A stretch of DNA of 29,987 bases from a virus. Where the stretch lies: IMG/VR virus record IMGVR_UViG_3300005618_000045, positions 1-29,987 of that record. One strand, 5' to 3'. A program made the translations under genes and the position numbers. Shown in pieces: positions 182 through 28,700 of the stretch. The notes under the pieces were generated by a model. It was not told the DNA's origin and ran no database searches. It was given only the letters and a program-made list of their open reading frames with translations. Numbering within the stretch: the stretch's first letter is position 1; each line of letters starts with the position of its first letter.

Positions 182-373
182 ATGAAATGGGATGATGACG
201 AATTCAAAGACTTGAAATATCAAATTTTCGACCTACTCGTGGATGAGCTAGATCATCATTACCAAAATTTATCACTCAAACAAATTTCAGATGCCATTGA
301 CGATATGTTTGAAAAATTGATTGGGATGAGTGATTCATTTGAAAAAATGATTAATTCGGATAAATCAAAATAA
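182..373 (+). CDS. Small acidic hypothetical protein (63 aa)
   Basis: A 63-residue, strongly acidic protein beginning M-K-W-D-D-D-E and predicted by eye to be mostly helical (regular Leu/Ile/Phe spacing). There are no Cys motifs, signal peptide or membrane segment. Only 16 bases separate it from the preceding frame, consistent with one transcript. The ribosome site is weak. I do not recognise the family. Small acidic proteins are common in phage accessory regions upstream of terminase genes, but no function can be assigned. Confidence 0.55.
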   Translation: MKWDDDEFKDLKYQIFDLLVDELDHHYQNLSLKQISDAIDDMFEKLIGMSDSFEKMINSDKSK

Positions 374-3393: not shown

Positions 3394-5433
3394 ATGACAA
3401 GTGGAATGCTCGAAAGGAGTCAGGTTGTCCCGAACGTTTACCAAAGCTATTATCAAGATGGTAAAAGAGATATTGTAGCCGAGGCAGATGCACGATATCA
3501 ACAGAATTTATCGGCTTGGCAGCTTTTCTTTTATGAGCAGTTAATTGACAGAAAAGTTTATCTTGGCGACCAGCGTTTTCTAAATATGTATTCAGGTTTG
3601 AGTTATGAGCATCAAAAATGGGTATTCAATAACTCAATGCCTGTAGTCAATATGGTTTGCGGACGTCAGCGTCAGCATCGCAAAGCAACTCAAATGATTC
3701 CAGTACATGGATCTAGCGATAAGACAGCATCTCAAGCAACCAAATGCATTCAATCAGCCTATTATAATGACGATACATATAACACTCATTCAGCATGTTT
3801 TAAAGAAGCAGCAGGCATAACTGGTCTAGCTTTAGAGCATTCTTGGATAGACTATAGGCGAGATCCTATTTGCGGAGACTTGCGCACTGAATGCCTTAGT
3901 GCTGACATGATAATGATGGATGCATTTTGGCGTGAAATGGATTTAAGCGATTGTCAATTCATACGCACTCGCAAATATCTCTGGAAAGAACAAGTTAAAC
4001 AGATGTTGCCGGGTCGAGAGCATGATATTGATATGCTCAATGACCAAGCTTATTTTGATACTAAGTTTACATACATGCCTCAGCAATATAATATCAGGCG
4101 TAAAGGTTTCCTAGCATATGATGAATATTGGTATTTAACCGAACGTATGGCAACATTTATTGTCGATCCTGAAACATATGAAAGCACGGAGGTGGACTTT
4201 GATCGAGAAGAAATGGAACAACTCAAAGTACAATTTCCGCAAGTTGTCGTGGTTAAGGAAAAAGTGCCTACTGTGCATCTTGCTATCATTGTTAACAATA
4301 CTTGCTTCTATGATGGGCCAAATCCTCTTGGCGTAGATATGTATCCTTTTATACCTTTTGTTGGGTATCATGATCTTGCTAATAATAACTATGCATTTCG
4401 TTACCAAGGTATTATTAGAAATATAAGAGATAGTCAATACCTTTATAATTACCGCAAGCAATTAGAATTGGACCTATTAGCGGCGCAATTTTCAGGTGTT
4501 GACGTCGAAGAAGATGCGTTAATTGATGATAGTGATGCTTTTAAGGTAGGACCGGGAAAAGTTAGATTCTTAAAGAAAGGTAGACTTAATGCGCTCGTTG
4601 ACAAGCCAGGAGCAAATATTAATCCTGCTAACTATCAGGCAACCCAATTCCTTAAAGAGGATATACAATCAAATGCCGGAGTTACGCCAGAATTGCTGGG
4701 ACAAGCGGAAGACAGTGATGTGGGTATTACAGAACAATTGCGTCAGGGTGCAGCTCTCACCACTTTACAAGAGTTATTCGACAACCTCGACTTATCACAG
4801 CGTAATGCTGGCAGGCTACATTGGGCGCTTATTCAGAAGAATTATACCCTTGGAAAGATTAGAAGGATGATCGAGGAAGACCCAACGAATGAATTCCGTG
4901 ATAAGTCATTCCAGAGATACGACGCTGTTGTTGCTAATGCGCCTCTAACAAATACTACAAAGCAACTTGCATTCATCCAGAAATACCAGCTATGGAAAGA
5001 TGGATTGCCTATCCCTGTCGATCAATTGCTTGCTGACGTTGATATGCAAGATAAAGACAAGCTAATAGAATCAATTCAGCAACAGCAACAGCAACAAGCA
5101 CAACAAGAACAACAAATGGCACAGCTTCAGATGCAGAATCAACAGATTGTTAATGAGTCATTGCAATCTAAGGCTATTAGCGATCGCGCACTTGCAGAAG
5201 AACGAATTCAGAAAGGCCACCTCGAACAAGTTTCATTGATGACTAAATACAATGAATCTGAGCATCAAAAAGCATCTGCAACACTTGATAAGGTTAAAGC
5301 TGCAAAAGAAGTGGAATCTATGCATATTGAAGATTTCGTTAAGGTATTTACCTTGATAGAAAATATTCAAAAAAGACAAGATGATAAAGAAATAGCAATG
5401 TCACAACCGAAAGGAGTTTCAAATGGGACATAG
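3394..5433 (+). CDS. Portal protein, P22 gp1-like
   Basis: A 679-residue protein directly after the terminase block. Its length and features fit the P22-type portal family (P22 gp1 is about 725 residues). These include an N-terminal R-Y-Q-Q-N-L-S-A-W-Q-like helix, the R-Q-R-Q-H-R-K segment near residue 93, and an aromatic- and Asp-rich core. A helical C-terminal region holds Q-rich and coiled-coil sequence (about residues 565-640, with a run of seven Gln), reminiscent of the P22 portal barrel. The dodecameric portal forms the DNA entry vertex, binds the large terminase and seats the tail. The ATG at 3394 has AGGTGA upstream. Its 3' end overlaps the next gene by 11 bases. Confidence 0.9.
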   Translation: MTSGMLERSQVVPNVYQSYYQDGKRDIVAEADARYQQNLSAWQLFFYEQLIDRKVYLGDQRFLNMYSGLSYEHQKWVFNNSMPVVNMVCGRQRQHRKATQMIPVHGSSDKTASQATKCIQSAYYNDDTYNTHSACFKEAAGITGLALEHSWIDYRRDPICGDLRTECLSADMIMMDAFWREMDLSDCQFIRTRKYLWKEQVKQMLPGREHDIDMLNDQAYFDTKFTYMPQQYNIRRKGFLAYDEYWYLTERMATFIVDPETYESTEVDFDREEMEQLKVQFPQVVVVKEKVPTVHLAIIVNNTCFYDGPNPLGVDMYPFIPFVGYHDLANNNYAFRYQGIIRNIRDSQYLYNYRKQLELDLLAAQFSGVDVEEDALIDDSDAFKVGPGKVRFLKKGRLNALVDKPGANINPANYQATQFLKEDIQSNAGVTPELLGQAEDSDVGITEQLRQGAALTTLQELFDNLDLSQRNAGRLHWALIQKNYTLGKIRRMIEEDPTNEFRDKSFQRYDAVVANAPLTNTTKQLAFIQKYQLWKDGLPIPVDQLLADVDMQDKDKLIESIQQQQQQQAQQEQQMAQLQMQNQQIVNESLQSKAISDRALAEERIQKGHLEQVSLMTKYNESEHQKASATLDKVKAAKEVESMHIEDFVKVFTLIENIQKRQDDKEIAMSQPKGVSNGT

Positions 5434-5632
5434 TCATAAAAATACATCTATGGGTGGATCTGGGAAGGGTAATACTGGAGCAGATTATAGCAAGATCAAA
5501 GAAAACCATGATCCAAAGCCACCAGCAGGCGCAAGCAATAGCTACGAGCAAGTAAGAAAAAAGATCGATCATCATGATGATAGGTCACTCGCTCACAAGC
5601 CATATACACGCGAAAAGATGATGAATAAATAA
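5423..5632 (+). CDS. Small Gly/Lys/His-rich protein after portal (69 aa)
   Basis: A 69-residue hydrophilic, low-complexity protein starting M-G-H-S-H-K-N, with a G-x-G-K-G segment and a His/Asp run (H-H-D-D). It is likely disordered. The start overlaps the portal 3' end by 11 bases and has an excellent AAGGAG site 6 bases upstream, which supports real expression. Similar tiny polar proteins recur at 5935, 6117 and 6444, so this is a cluster of small proteins between portal and scaffold. They could be minor virion or assembly factors, but that is inference. Confidence 0.7.
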   Translation: MGHSHKNTSMGGSGKGNTGADYSKIKENHDPKPPAGASNSYEQVRKKIDHHDDRSLAHKPYTREKMMNK

Positions 5633-5638
5633 TCATTT

Positions 5639-5742
5639 CCTATTGTAGCTCAGCAGTGAGAGCGCGATGATCCGTTTTGCGGTAGGGATTGAGCCTCTTA
5701 AGTAAACGGGGAGAGGTCGCAGGTGCAATTCCTGCCAATAGG
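5639..5742 (+). tRNA. tRNA-like sequence 1, expanded anticodon region (non-canonical)
   Basis: The ends form a 7-bp acceptor-like stem (CCTATTG 5639-5645 with CAATAGG 5736-5742). Next comes TA and a textbook D arm (GCTC, 8-base loop, GAGC). A perfect T arm (GCAGG, 7-base loop, CCTGC, 5719-5735) is preceded by a typical AGGTC variable loop. Between D arm and variable loop there are about 49 bases where a normal tRNA has about 18. I could not fold a standard 5-bp anticodon stem with a 7-base loop there. The inner bases can form other stems (TCCGTTT with AAACGGG). No CCA is encoded. It may be an interrupted tRNA, a degraded tRNA, or a tRNA mimic, and no amino acid can be assigned. Confidence 0.5.
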
Positions 5743-5749
5743 TTTTTAT

Positions 5750-5840
5750 GGATTCTGTAGACTCAACTGGAAGAGCGGCGGTTGTACAGGTAAAGCTGTT
5801 ATATGCAGGTTGTTGGTTCGAATCCAACCAGAGTCCACCA
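5750..5840 (+). tRNA. tRNA-like sequence 2, encoded CCA, unusual anticodon region
   Basis: GGATTCTG (5750-5757) pairs with CAGAGTCC (5829-5836) as an 8-bp acceptor with one G.T pair, followed by discriminator A and an encoded CCA (5838-5840). The T arm is perfect (GTTGG, loop TTCGAAT, CCAAC; 5812-5828). The D loop carries the conserved GG, but its stem is only about 3 bp. From the D arm to the T arm there are 35 bases with no good anticodon stem. The best local hairpin is ACAG with CTGT around GTAAAG. A GTA triplet preceded by T is a possible Tyr anticodon, but its flanks do not pair. At 91 nt it is class II size. Likely a real tRNA-related RNA, identity unresolved. Confidence 0.6.
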
Positions 5841-5864
5841 TTTTATAAAAAGGATAAATAATTT

Positions 5865-5922
5865 TTGAGGCAGGGAGCGAACGCGATTGGTGCAGCTGCA
5901 AGAGCCTTGCCTCAACTTTTTT
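5865..5922 (+). terminator. Terminator-like hairpin with T-tract
   Basis: An 8-bp perfect stem (TTGAGGCA 5865-5872 with TGCCTCAA 5908-5915) encloses 35 bases that can form a further inner stem, followed by C and six T. It sits after the two tRNA-like sequences and just before the gene at 5935. It could end the portal/tRNA transcript or be a third structured RNA in the same array. The long loop is unusual for a simple intrinsic terminator. Confidence 0.5.
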
Positions 5923-5934
5923 AAAGGATAAACT

Positions 5935-6111
5935 ATGTCAAAAATAAAGATCATTCCGGAAGCTGTTAAGCCGATGGTGCCAAAAAATAAAAACTTGAAT
6001 CAAACAGAGCCACGTTTCCGTGCTCCTGGTGGTAAGCCTCCATTGCAATTGGAAAAGAGCTATAATCGTGCAGGTGGCTTTAACGAAAAAGAACCAAAGA
6101 CTAGAGGATAA
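5935..6111 (+). CDS. Small basic Pro/Lys-rich protein (58 aa)
   Basis: A 58-residue basic protein, M-S-K-I-K-I-I-P-E-A-V-K-P, ending G-F-N-E-K-E-P-K-T-R-G, with R-A-P-G-G-K-P-P in the middle. An AAAGGAT ribosome site lies about 5 bases upstream of the ATG at 5935. The next gene starts 5 bases after its stop. Composition suggests a disordered, nucleic-acid- or virion-associated peptide. No recognised family. The ribosome site, tight spacing and similar neighbours are the reasons for calling it a gene. Confidence 0.6.
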   Translation: MSKIKIIPEAVKPMVPKNKNLNQTEPRFRAPGGKPPLQLEKSYNRAGGFNEKEPKTRG

Positions 6112-6116
6112 ATAAT

Positions 6117-6374
6117 ATGGCTGCTAATCCTAAACCATTGAGAAAAGAACATAAAAGCATGTCTTCAGAAACGCGAGAACATGGTAAAAAATTATATCCA
6201 CATAAAGGAACAAGAAAAGCTGTAATAGAAACAAAAGTTAAATCAGAAAAAAGTCGACCAATGGGAAAGAGATTAGCCAAATTTGCAAAAAGTGAAGGGG
6301 CTGCGGATTATGGTCAAATGAGAAAAGAAAAAAGAGAAGCAGCAGCAAAGCATATGAAAATGCATGGTGGTTAA
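6117..6374 (+). CDS. Small Lys-rich basic protein (85 aa)
   Basis: An 85-residue, very basic protein with repeated K/R-E patterns (R-K-E-H-K-S, E-K-R-E-A-A-A-K-H) and no hydrophobic core, hence probably helical or disordered and possibly nucleic-acid binding. It has GAGGAT upstream of the ATG and sits 5 bases after the preceding gene and 2 bases before the next start. It resembles the other tiny basic proteins in this cluster in composition but not clearly in sequence. No family recognised. Confidence 0.65.
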   Translation: MAANPKPLRKEHKSMSSETREHGKKLYPHKGTRKAVIETKVKSEKSRPMGKRLAKFAKSEGAADYGQMRKEKREAAAKHMKMHGG

Positions 6375-8144: not shown

Positions 8145-8162
8145 TCCTTTATATGTGACTTC

Positions 8163-8183
8163 GTCTTAACATGAGGTTAAGAC
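8163..8183 (+). promoter_or_regulatory. Perfect hairpin presenting the capsid ribosome site
   Basis: GTCTTAAC (8163-8170) and GTTAAGAC (8176-8183) form a perfect 8-bp stem around the 5-base loop ATGAG, ending one base before the capsid ATG at 8185. The Shine-Dalgarno GAGG (8173-8176) lies in the loop and its edge. Such a structure could expose or block the ribosome site, or stabilise the mRNA. Confidence 0.7.
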
Positions 8184-8184
8184 T

Positions 8185-9808
8185 ATGTCCGGCCCGACAA
8201 CCTCCAATATTCTGCCTCCAGCTGTTCAGCAGCAATTGAGCATGAAATTATTGGCACGTCCTATGCCAGACTTGATTCATACTACAATGGGTTACCCCAT
8301 CACAATGGATCAACAAGCTGGCGATATTCTGAGACGACGACGTTATCAGAACTTGCTAACCGCTCCAGTGCCTTTAGGCAATGGAATTGTAGACCCACCA
8401 GCGCAGCAACTTACAGCGCTTGATATTGATGCTAGAATTGACTGGTATGGAACTTACATTATACTGCAAGAGCAGGTAATGTTGATTAACGAAGACCCTA
8501 GACGTATACATGGGGTCTATAAATCTTCTCTGATGGACTTGAAACCCTTCGCTATGGCAGCATAGAAAGGCAACAAGGGGCAAGATTATGGATGAAAATA
8601 TAATAGATTATTTTGAAATGAAATTATTGCAGAATCCTAAAAGAGAGGTGCAATCAGATGGTTACATTAAAGAAATCTATAATCAGCCTGAACGCAGTAA
8701 GCGAGAAGACCTTAAATATTACTATGTTTGTTTAGAAGAGGATAGTTGTAATTGTCCAAATCCTTGGCATACCTGTTTTGAAACAGATTCAAAACAAGAA
8801 GCTGAAGAATGGGTAAATAGGATGCCTCATAAACGTACATGGCATGAACATATTAGGGATGCGGTACTCTGAACACTATGGAAACATAGTGAGGCCAGCT
8901 GAGAAGATTTGGCCCGCCTAGATTACTAGGTCAACAAGTAACAGATTGGTGTTAAACAGCGCAGTGTCTACATTAGGCCAGTCTCTTCGAGAAACAGAAG
9001 ACCAATTGGCTCGTAGCATGATGGAGGGGGGTGCTCCGCCGATTAATTGTACCTCTGGTACCAACGGTAAGGCATATTGGGTTATTGCCGTTGTAAAATT
9101 TCCTCTGATTGAGGTGGAACTCTCTAATAGAGACAACACTGCGCAAGCGAAAGCAGCGTAATCGACTGAGTGAGGAAACTCGAAAGAGATGCGACAGTCA
9201 GGCCTCATAGGTGACTATGAGAGGGAGATCCGAAGAGGTTTCCCCGCCATAGAAATATGGTCAATAAAGTAACAGAAACGGACAACCCAACAAACATCAG
9301 CCCATTGGATTGCAGCAAAGTCGTTCGCTTATTGCGCACTGCTAATGCACAATTCATCATGGACTTGATTGAAGGCGAAGACAAATTCGGTACTGGTCCA
9401 GTTCGTACCTGCTTCTTTGGCTTAACTCACACTAACCTTAGTGCTGACTTAGATCAAATGGTGGGCTTCCAGAACGTTGCGCAGTATGCGAATACAGCAA
9501 ACCTATTGCAAGCGGAATGGGGTACTATTAGAAACATCCGTTTCTTATTGTCCTCTGTTGGTAGTATTTCGCCTAATGCTTCTGCTAATGGACAAGACGT
9601 TTATAATATCTTTATTCCAGGACAGGAAAGCTATGACATGGTTGATCTTGATGGCTATAGTGCGCAGTTTATCTATGCACCGCCAGAGATTGCATCACCA
9701 CGTTTAAGATTGTATCAAACAGCAGGCTGGAAAATGGCGCAAGTATTCAACATCACTAACACCTCTTGGATCGTCAACTTACGTTGCACGCTTCAAGTAG
9801 CACTATAG
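8185..9808 (+). CDS. Major capsid protein, N4-gp56-like, split into three exons
   Basis: Exons 8185-8499, 8949-9068 and 9281-9808 join in phase 0 to give 320 residues (105+40+175). They are separated by two group I-like introns. The rebuilt protein reads through the family-typical D-P-V-L-N junction followed by L-G-Q-S-L-R-E-T-E-D (exon 1/2). It continues with an A-E-W-G-T-I-R-N-I-R-F core and a C-terminal hydrophobic strand (exon 3). These resemble the N4-gp56 major capsid family of HK97-fold shell proteins. Without splicing, exon 1 runs on only 21 codons to TAG at 8563-8565 and exon 2 runs to TAA at 9159-9161, so no full coat protein is made. The scaffold lies just upstream, as expected. 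Confidence 0.88.
8500..8948 (+). ncRNA. Group I-like intron 1 in capsid gene (449 nt, ORF-bearing)
   Basis: The exon end AGACCCT (8493-8499) pairs with the guide GGGGTCT (8512-8518), seven pairs ending in the diagnostic U.G at the 5' splice site. The intron ends in G8948. The exon 2 start GTGT can pair with ACAT (8508-8511) as P10. The core includes P7 (GGGTA 8811-8815 with TACTC 8865-8869), P8 (ATGCC 8822-8826 with GGCAT 8841-8845) and J8/7 AGGGATGCGG (8855-8864). Three 3' hairpins follow: 8874-8891 with a GAAA loop, 8893-8914, and 8917-8930. All match intron 2 in order with compensating changes. An ORF fills the P6-P8 region. P3 to P6 were not resolved. Confidence 0.85.
8588..8872 (+). CDS. 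Intron-encoded protein of unknown type (94 aa)
   Basis: A 94-residue protein inside intron 1. It has an acidic N-terminus and a central aromatic stretch (K-Y-Y-Y-V-C-L-E-E-D-S-C-N-C-P), giving a small Cys cluster. The C-terminal half (E-A-E-E-W-V-N-R-M-P-H-K-R-T-W-H-E-H) contains three His. It lacks LAGLIDADG, GIY-YIG and a recognisable HNH or His-Cys box signature, and is shorter than most homing endonucleases. Its last about 60 coding bases also form P7, P8 and J8/7 of the ribozyme, and its TGA stop lies next to P7'. The ribosome site is GGGGCAAG upstream. It may be a maturase, a very diverged nuclease or an unrelated passenger. Confidence 0.65.
   Translation: MDENIIDYFEMKLLQNPKREVQSDGYIKEIYNQPERSKREDLKYYYVCLEEDSCNCPNPWHTCFETDSKQEAEEWVNRMPHKRTWHEHIRDAVL
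9069..9280 (+). ncRNA. Group I-like intron 2 in capsid gene (212 nt, minimal)
   Basis: The exon end CAACGGT (9062-9068) pairs perfectly with the guide GCCGTTG (9087-9093), closing with the U.G pair. The intron ends in G9280. P7 is GACTG (9164-9168) with CAGTC (9195-9199). P8 is GAG-GAAA-CTC (9172-9181). J8/7 is AGAGATGCGA (9185-9194), nearly identical to that in intron 1. Hairpins follow at 9204-9221 (GTGA loop), 9223-9244 and 9247-9260 (GAAA loop), then the conserved tail GGTCAATAAAGTAACAGA. At 212 nt it is close to the smallest self-splicing group I introns known (Azoarcus tRNA-Ile, about 205 nt). TTGGGTT (9077-9083) can pair with AACCCAA near the start of exon 3 (9284-9290). Confidence 0.85.
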
Positions 9809-10922: not shown

Positions 10923-10931
10923 TAATTATTT

Positions 10932-10955
10932 GGAAGAGGTTCGCGAGCCTCTTCC
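10932..10955 (+). terminator. Strong hairpin after capsid block
   Basis: GGAAGAGG (10932-10939) and CCTCTTCC (10948-10955) form a perfect 8-bp stem around TTCGCGAG, in the 49-base gap between two genes. Only TTAATT follows, so the T-tract is weak. It may be a partial terminator or an mRNA-stabilising or processing hairpin that lowers expression of later genes relative to capsid. Confidence 0.55.
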
Positions 10956-10971
10956 TTAATTAAAGGAAAAT

Positions 10972-27359: not shown

Positions 27360-28700
27360 ATGGCCCTAACACATGCATTAAGCACAAATAATTATGGACC
27401 TGCAAAGCTTATTGTCGCTACCTCCGCAGCTAATGGGACCCATACAACGTTAGCCGGGGCGATGGCAGATGCTGTATCAGGAGATACTATATTCCTAAGA
27501 GACAGTGTGACAGAGAACGTCACTTTAATTGCAGGTGTAAATATTGCAGCCTGGCAAGGTGGTACATTAAATACGCCTTCTATTACAGGCACATTGACTA
27601 TGACAGCGGCAGGAACATGTAATATTAGTGGTGTCCGTCTAGTCACTAATTCCGCAGTCTTTTTGGCTGTCACTGGTAATGCCGCTTCAATTGTAAATCT
27701 TAATAATTGCTTCTTAAATGCTTCTAATAACGATGGTATTACATTTTCAAGCTCATCTGCAAGTGCTTCTATAAGAATTGAATATTGTAAAACAGATCTG
27801 GCAACGTCTGGAATAAAATTATTTGCTCATTCATCCAGCGGTGTTTTGTCATTTCGCTATGTAACGAATGGAAATTCTGGAGGATCTTCGACTGCTTCTA
27901 CTTGCTCGGCAGGAACTTTGCTATTTGTTGAAACTACTATAAATCATCCAATTACTTTATCCGGTACTGGTAGTGTTGAGGCAGCTGAATTTAGTATTGA
28001 CACAAGTGCAACAAATACAACTGCATTAACTTTAGGTGGTGGTTCCCAGGCATTTAGATTTACCAAAATAGCTTCTGGTTCAGCTTCAGCAGTTACTATT
28101 AGTACAACAGCTTCACTTGAATCTTGTACAATTAATAGTTCTAACACTAATGCGGTGACAGGAGCCGGCACGCTTCTTTATTCTAATTTAATATTCGATG
28201 GTAGCTCTAATGTTATTAACACTACCACTCAGACAGCTCTAATTAATCGCCCTGGAATTACTAGAAGCGGCTCACAACCAGCTTTCCTTGCTACATCAGC
28301 AGGGGCAACAAATCAGACTGGAGATACCACGCAATATACAATTGTATATGGTAATGAAATTTTTGATCAAAACGGAAACTACGACCCATCAACAGGTATT
28401 TTTACGGCACCATATACCGGACGTTATCAATTTAATATTACTACAGAAGTTACAGGTTTAGGAGTAGCTAATACATCTGGAAATTTATCCTTTATAGCCA
28501 CAAGCCGTAGTATTAATACTGGCTCCTATAATTGGGGTGCTATTATGTCTTCTGTTAATACTGTAAGAGTCTCTGCTGCTTCTTTGATTGATATGACAGC
28601 AGGAGATACATGTTTTGTAAGGCTTACAATAAGTGGGGGAACAAAAATTGTCGGCGTCGGGGCAACTAATACTACATTTTCGGGTTTTTTAGTTTGTTAA
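27360..28700 (+). CDS. Fibre protein with C-terminal C1q-like domain (446 aa)
   Basis: A 446-residue protein. The first about 310 residues are repetitive beta-strand sequence with many Ser/Thr/Asn, like a fibre shaft. The last about 120 resemble a C1q/TNF-like trimeric jelly roll: F-D-Q-N-G-N-Y-D-P, then T-G-I-F-T-A-P-Y-T-G-R-Y-Q-F (in part), then a hydrophobic strand and a C-terminal F-S-G-F-L-V-C. The 'G-x-F-x-A-P-x-x-G-x-Y-x-F' pattern is the family hallmark. Such tips often bind receptors. AAGGA precedes the start. The 3' end overlaps the - strand gene by 4 bases. Confidence 0.75.
   Translation: MALTHALSTNNYGPAKLIVATSAANGTHTTLAGAMADAVSGDTIFLRDSVTENVTLIAGVNIAAWQGGTLNTPSITGTLTMTAAGTCNISGVRLVTNSAVFLAVTGNAASIVNLNNCFLNASNNDGITFSSSSASASIRIEYCKTDLATSGIKLFAHSSSGVLSFRYVTNGNSGGSSTASTCSAGTLLFVETTINHPITLSGTGSVEAAEFSIDTSATNTTALTLGGGSQAFRFTKIASGSASAVTISTTASLESCTINSSNTNAVTGAGTLLYSNLIFDGSSNVINTTTQTALINRPGITRSGSQPAFLATSAGATNQTGDTTQYTIVYGNEIFDQNGNYDPSTGIFTAPYTGRYQFNITTEVTGLGVANTSGNLSFIATSRSINTGSYNWGAIMSSVNTVRVSAASLIDMTAGDTCFVRLTISGGTKIVGVGATNTTFSGFLVC

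Follow-up and report, generated by a model that had tools for sequence, protein, structure and literature searches.

The slot described here, which lies between the portal and capsid genes of a phage genome, very probably harbours exchangeable RNAs under selection, among them tRNA-shaped RNAs devoid of an anticodon arm. The window, meaning the whole stretch of DNA analysed (29,987 bases), belongs to an uncultured phage with bacteria as hosts, and its plus strand carries the genes of the terminase (phrog_2), portal (phrog_156) and major head protein (phrog_1357) in that order. The portal protein gene (3394-5433, +; E 2.8e-63 to phrog_156) lies 5' of the slot, which extends from 5633 to 5934 on the same strand and is bordered by two conserved genes, one of 69 amino acids at the 5' flank (MGHSHKNTS...YTREKMMNK; 5423-5632, +) and one of 58 amino acids at the 3' flank (MSKIKIIPEAVKP...; 5935-6111, +), neither having a family match in PHROGs or Pfam. 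This gap ends with AAAGGA, shortly followed by an ATG, and the same gap is present in about 70 relatives, where another hairpin or folded RNA occupies it. In the window, the first RNA follows the preceding stop codon after 6 nt, and the last cassette ends just 5' of the AAAGGA-ATG, a ribosome site. A nucleotide search of cultured phages gave no match, and the portal relatives among them reach an identity of at most about 27%.

Two tRNA-like RNAs are found in the slot, RNA1 (5639-5742, +) of family A and RNA2 (5750-5840, +) of family B. When scanned by cmscan in E-value mode, both match the tRNA family RF00005 above the Rfam cut-off, RNA1 with 40.1 bits (E 6e-7) and RNA2 with 30.1 bits (E 3e-4), their anticodon regions bearing inserts of 47 and 25 nt, respectively; neither was picked up by the faster gathering-mode Rfam scan. 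RNA1 possesses an acceptor of 7 bp (CCTATTG/CAATAGG), a D stem of 4 bp (GCTC/GAGC), a variable loop AGGTC and a T stem of 5 bp (GCAGG/CCTGC), and a hairpin extension stands where the anticodon arm would be. RNA2 has a body from 5750 to 5836, followed by ACCA up to 5840, with an acceptor of 8 bp (GGATTCTG/CAGAGTCC), an irregular D arm, a T stem GTTGG/CCAAC closing the loop TTCGAAT and, replacing the anticodon arm, an internal loop and a hairpin with a GTAAAG loop. Full stems and RF00005 scores thus bear out the near-perfect acceptor and T arms noticed in a preliminary description of this DNA, and the CCA that it saw encoded in one RNA is the end of RNA2.

Both RNAs share with tRNA the acceptor, the D arm, the AGGTC-type variable loop and the T arm, but differ from it by lacking the anticodon arm, with 25-47 extra nt instead. 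The abnormal anticodon region, also pointed out previously, is confirmed by these inserts and by ARAGORN, which detected neither a tRNA nor an anticodon arm in the window, whether introns were allowed or not; the normal anticodon arm that would have spoken against the description was therefore not encountered. Of the parts that a functional tRNA requires, the acceptor and the D and T arms are present and the anticodon arm with its 7-nt loop is absent. A scan for a 7-bp acceptor together with D and T arms yielded about 17 distinct matches in 578 kb of window and relatives, a count that includes normal tRNAs and likely chance matches, and 1 match in a composition-shuffled control.

The case for structure rests on comparison, since the single folds of RNA1 and RNA2 are little above their shuffles in stability (z -1.36 and -1.42, respectively). 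Family A comprises RNA1 and its counterparts in the relatives L031 and L007, all in the same gap (n=3). In the aligned cloverleaf, 95.8% of the cells are paired over 24 pairs and both sides have changed in 11 of these pairs, including 6 of the 7 acceptor pairs, a covariation that comes from three sequences only and to which the relatedness caveat of the test applies. None of 500 shuffles equalled the paired percentage or the double-change count, and the pairing falls to 42-58% when the partner is moved by 1-3 columns. The free minimum fold is the cloverleaf in L007 and L031, as well as in L002 and L055 of family B, and the RNA1 fold constrained to the tRNA arms lies within 0.2 kcal/mol of its minimum. 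CCA is absent from family A, and its T loop, TGCAATT, has a G at position 2. When the core pattern of this family was searched in 84,980 bacterial and archaeal genomes, 34 matches were obtained, with no tRNA-like flanks by inspection, and all of them are read as chance.

The middle of family A follows a defined plan, in which the D stem leads to the usual G at 26 and to a single pair, C27-G, where the anticodon stem stops, and then to a kink-turn signature, located at position 27 in the three members. In RNA1 (5665-5713, +), it corresponds to C-GAT-GA-TCC facing GGG-GA-G, the two strands being joined by a stem-loop whose length varies; in the family, the 5' strand is composed of GAT or AAT, GA and TCC, and the 3' strand of GGG, GA and G. 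The standard kink-turn layout, with a 3-nt bulge, tandem G-A/A-G and helices on both sides, is present in sequence in 3/3 members, which differ in the length of the hairpin beyond it, and the pattern arises in 5% of RNA1 shuffles. The tested sequences of families B and C lack it. A C:G pair at -1b:-1n and a G at 3n, with a non-Watson-Crick 3b:3n, favour kink-turn folding in metal ions (PMC8191799), and under these published rules the predicted RNA1 kink-turn should fold in metal ions. Family A therefore resembles the standard Kt-7 type in the 3-nt bulge, the tandem G-A/A-G, the C:G at -1b:-1n and the G at 3n, but its signature sits one pair past the D stem of a tRNA-like RNA. In the literature searched, which covered few subscription journals, a kink-turn within a tRNA-like phage RNA is not reported.

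Family B joins RNA2 to relatives in four records, three of them in the same gap (L002, L003 and L056) and one at another intergenic site (L055). The 8-bp acceptor is found in all members, with double changes at 5 acceptor pairs, 2 T-stem pairs and 2 inner-hairpin pairs; the paired columns of the alignment include 29-58 and 30-57, and the GTAAAG loop of the inner hairpin is invariant. As the odd middle is kept in relatives, it is no accident of one sequence, and the random decay in relatives that had been named as an argument against the preliminary description is contradicted by compensatory changes. As judged from these comparisons, RNA1 and RNA2 are real, selected and non-decoding tRNA-shaped RNAs that keep the acceptor, D and T arms.

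That the RNAs are functioning tRNAs whose odd or interrupted anticodon arm is spliced or decoded by some non-standard route is a very improbable explanation. The near-perfect tRNA ends and the ACCA of RNA2 would agree with it, as would the ARAGORN calls of L002/L003 as tRNA-Pro and of L031 as an intron-bearing tRNA-Arg, but the window gives no call with introns allowed, the anticodon is not conserved and family A is devoid of CCA. Moreover, the whole anticodon arm of L007 is swapped for a short hairpin with a 4-nt GATC tetraloop, so that splicing has no anticodon to restore. The same observations from ARAGORN and L007 give no support to the interrupted tRNAs proposed at first, and the decoys for host tRNA nucleases, proposed in the same place, are not supported for nucleases of the anticodon type, since no anticodon loop is kept; the RNAs may be decoys for acceptor- or elbow-binding enzymes. 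It is also improbable, although slightly less so, that they are remnants of tRNA genes captured by recombination, having lost the anticodon arm and serving as mere spacer. Normal tRNA-Asn genes elsewhere in L024, L046 and L033, in addition to one empty slot, are compatible with such an origin; nevertheless, the acceptor, T and inner stems have changed in a compensatory manner, the cores are invariant and the same odd middle occurs in distant phages.

The slot was surveyed in relatives collected via the portal and the 69-aa protein, giving 80 short loci with 68 distinct sequences. A dozen or so cassette types could be grouped, including several kinds of anticodon-less tRNA mimics, of which one has the kink-turn at its centre. 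Further tRNA-like types are above the Rfam cut-off in L220 and L196, and those of L041, L117, L028, L112 and L214 were recognized by pattern scan or eye only. Many slots contain non-tRNA elements that were grouped into families by sequence, others contain plain hairpins, and compensatory change is also seen in the non-tRNA cassettes F1 (seven members) and F2 (four). Besides tRNA, no Rfam family was detected in 60 slot loci, and patterns for three of the non-tRNA cassettes (F1, F2 and F6) retrieved no convincing copy beyond the slot. Compared to dinucleotide shuffles, the folding of the slots has a mean z of -1.8 and is negative in 66 of 69 sequences, a list that includes L165, whose boundary is false (a pattern artefact). 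In L100 the slot is empty (8 nt) and in L039 nearly so (30 nt), indicating that the element is not essential.

The third cassette of the window (5865-5915, +) is a hairpin of 11 bp, with its stem at 5865-5875/5905-5915, a loop of 29 nt and a fold z of -2.3, for which no relative and no terminator match were found. The hairpin with a T-tract reported in the preliminary description is thus real, its stem being followed by CTTTTTT, but it is not a standard terminator because of the 29-nt loop. As a separate observation, the palindrome TGTAAAGCSGCTTTACA recurs in slots (e.g., L010, L013, L021, L028, L033 and L049), alone or beside other cassettes. Odd tRNA-like sequences were also seen at other intergenic sites of relatives, at 212-292 (-) of L036, 3345-3425 (-) of L049, 3003-3108 (-) of L032 and 3906-3970 of L045, and some of the odd sequences found elsewhere have oversized anticodon loops.

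Judging exchange from pairwise portal identities, the cassettes do not track portal similarity. L046 and L030 have portals 92% and 90% identical to that of the window, yet carry other cassettes, and family A occurs in L007 and L031, with portals 84% and 78% identical, and family B in L056, with a portal 33% identical. Where cassettes stand in tandem in L046 and L130, the terminal sequence of the upstream gene (GATGAATAAATAA) is copied at their junction, and a shorter similar stretch precedes the third hairpin of the window. Due to these copies at the junctions and to the mismatch between portals and cassettes, the cassettes were probably exchanged by recombination through the flanking genes.

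As to their function, the most likely reading is a role in cis, plausible although somewhat short of probable, in which the RNAs would be folded sites where the late message is processed or protected between its portal and capsid parts, with host tRNA-processing enzymes making the cuts. The late operon would be carried through the slot as one message, and the folded body between the stop codon and the next ribosome site would mark, cut or protect it. Tentatively, the tRNA-shaped cassettes would be cut by host RNase P and 3' tRNA-processing enzymes, and in other phages hairpins or other compact RNAs would do the same job in the same place. The slot parts the portal block from the capsid-leading block, portal and capsid being products required in very unequal amounts, and its elements would presumably bring a benefit. 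Among the three readings offered previously, RNase P processing by means of borrowed tRNA ends is the best fit, with the cleavage itself as the predicted part. A related arrangement is the tRNA punctuation of polycistronic messages in mitochondria, where working tRNAs between genes are cut out by RNase P together with an enzyme that processes the 3' end; the slot likewise places tRNA-shaped bodies between genes, but these are not the working tRNAs of mitochondria and their cleavage would be a prediction.

Such a job in cis would be general, because the slot elements fold in nearly all relatives, including those with plain hairpins; a compact closed RNA is what the tRNA-like, complex and plain-hairpin cassettes have in common, and the cis role is the simplest account of them. 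The position on the coding strand counts in its favour, where no promoter was found around the slot by the promoter scan and no intrinsic terminator (a short-loop GC-rich hairpin with a U run) in 5300-6300 by the terminator scan. On the other hand, the complex, sequence-conserved cores of some cassettes exceed the needs of a simple cut site or hairpin, a second gap of the same operon has plain hairpins only, a few slots are empty or nearly so, CCA is encoded only in RNA2 of the window, and family A is limited to its three members, with the z of -1.36 for RNA1. That second gap (10923-10971 in the window), located 3' of the head genes, contains a long plain hairpin, differing in sequence, in 10 of the 10 phages looked at.

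A possible but doubtful alternative is that the cassettes act in trans, as small RNAs released from the late message that bind a host or rival factor, such as a nuclease, a tRNA-handling enzyme or a defence system, the variety of the slot then reflecting an arms race. The tRNA tail and elbow would bind such factors and permit trimming to a stable RNA. This would explain the great variety at one site, the conserved cores within variable stems, the different cassettes of close relatives and the additional genomic location of family B in L055. However, the scan gave no promoter on the coding strand, a late structural operon is late for counter-defence, many slots have a plain hairpin alone, and some are empty. 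Its extended form, in which the lineage would keep in this one slot a changing stock of small structured RNAs that target the RNA machinery of hosts or rivals in trans and pass between phages like counter-defence genes, is put forward still more tentatively.

A further proposal would be that of bacterial Y RNAs (YrlA-like), tRNA mimics that tether the Ro60/Rsr protein to an exonuclease, and it is very improbable here. The description of YrlA RNAs as tRNA mimics and their report in phages, namely mycobacteriophages, are cited in PMC12282133, and RNA1 and RNA2 share with them a non-decoding, tRNA-like body. Nevertheless, no Rfam Y RNA match was obtained in 5400-6120 of the window or in the 60 slot loci, and a TROVE (Ro60) protein is absent from the 19 phage records searched, several of which are partial.

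Other features of the window and its relatives were observed in passing. The major head protein gene of the window is split by two inserts (8500-8948 and 9069-9280), after residues 105 and 145 as counted along the intact protein of L007. On visual inspection, these resemble group I introns, with GACTTG..., GGGGCAAGA, CAGCCTGA and ...TCTGAAC in the first insert, and Rfam returned no group I match for the inserts of the window. In relatives, including L012, L013, L022, L027, L029, L036, L040 and L046, this gene is interrupted at recurrent sites, at about residues 36, 88, 98, 105, 118, 133, 145 and 223, and one gene can have as many as about four inserts, those whose length was measured spanning about 200-1300 nt; the genes of L007 and L021 contain none. 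At 8145-8187 of the window, and in relatives, a short conserved hairpin (CTTCGTCT...AGAC, then ATG) overlaps the sequence that is the likely ribosome site for the major head protein. Further downstream, 27360-28700 encodes a protein of 446 amino acids with a C1q domain at its end, possibly a tail fibre.

Stable tRNA-like RNAs encoded by phages have a precedent in species 1 and 2 of phage T4, which are made within a tRNA cluster and have an unknown function; no exchangeable slot is known for them. Among the cassettes scanned, none is in Rfam except for the tRNA matches, making this lineage a source of unclassified structured RNAs. The slot provides a natural set of alternative RNA elements at one place, whose shared function is testable by swaps, and the selection of a tRNA shape without its decoding arm in phages opens a test of the tRNA body's own use.
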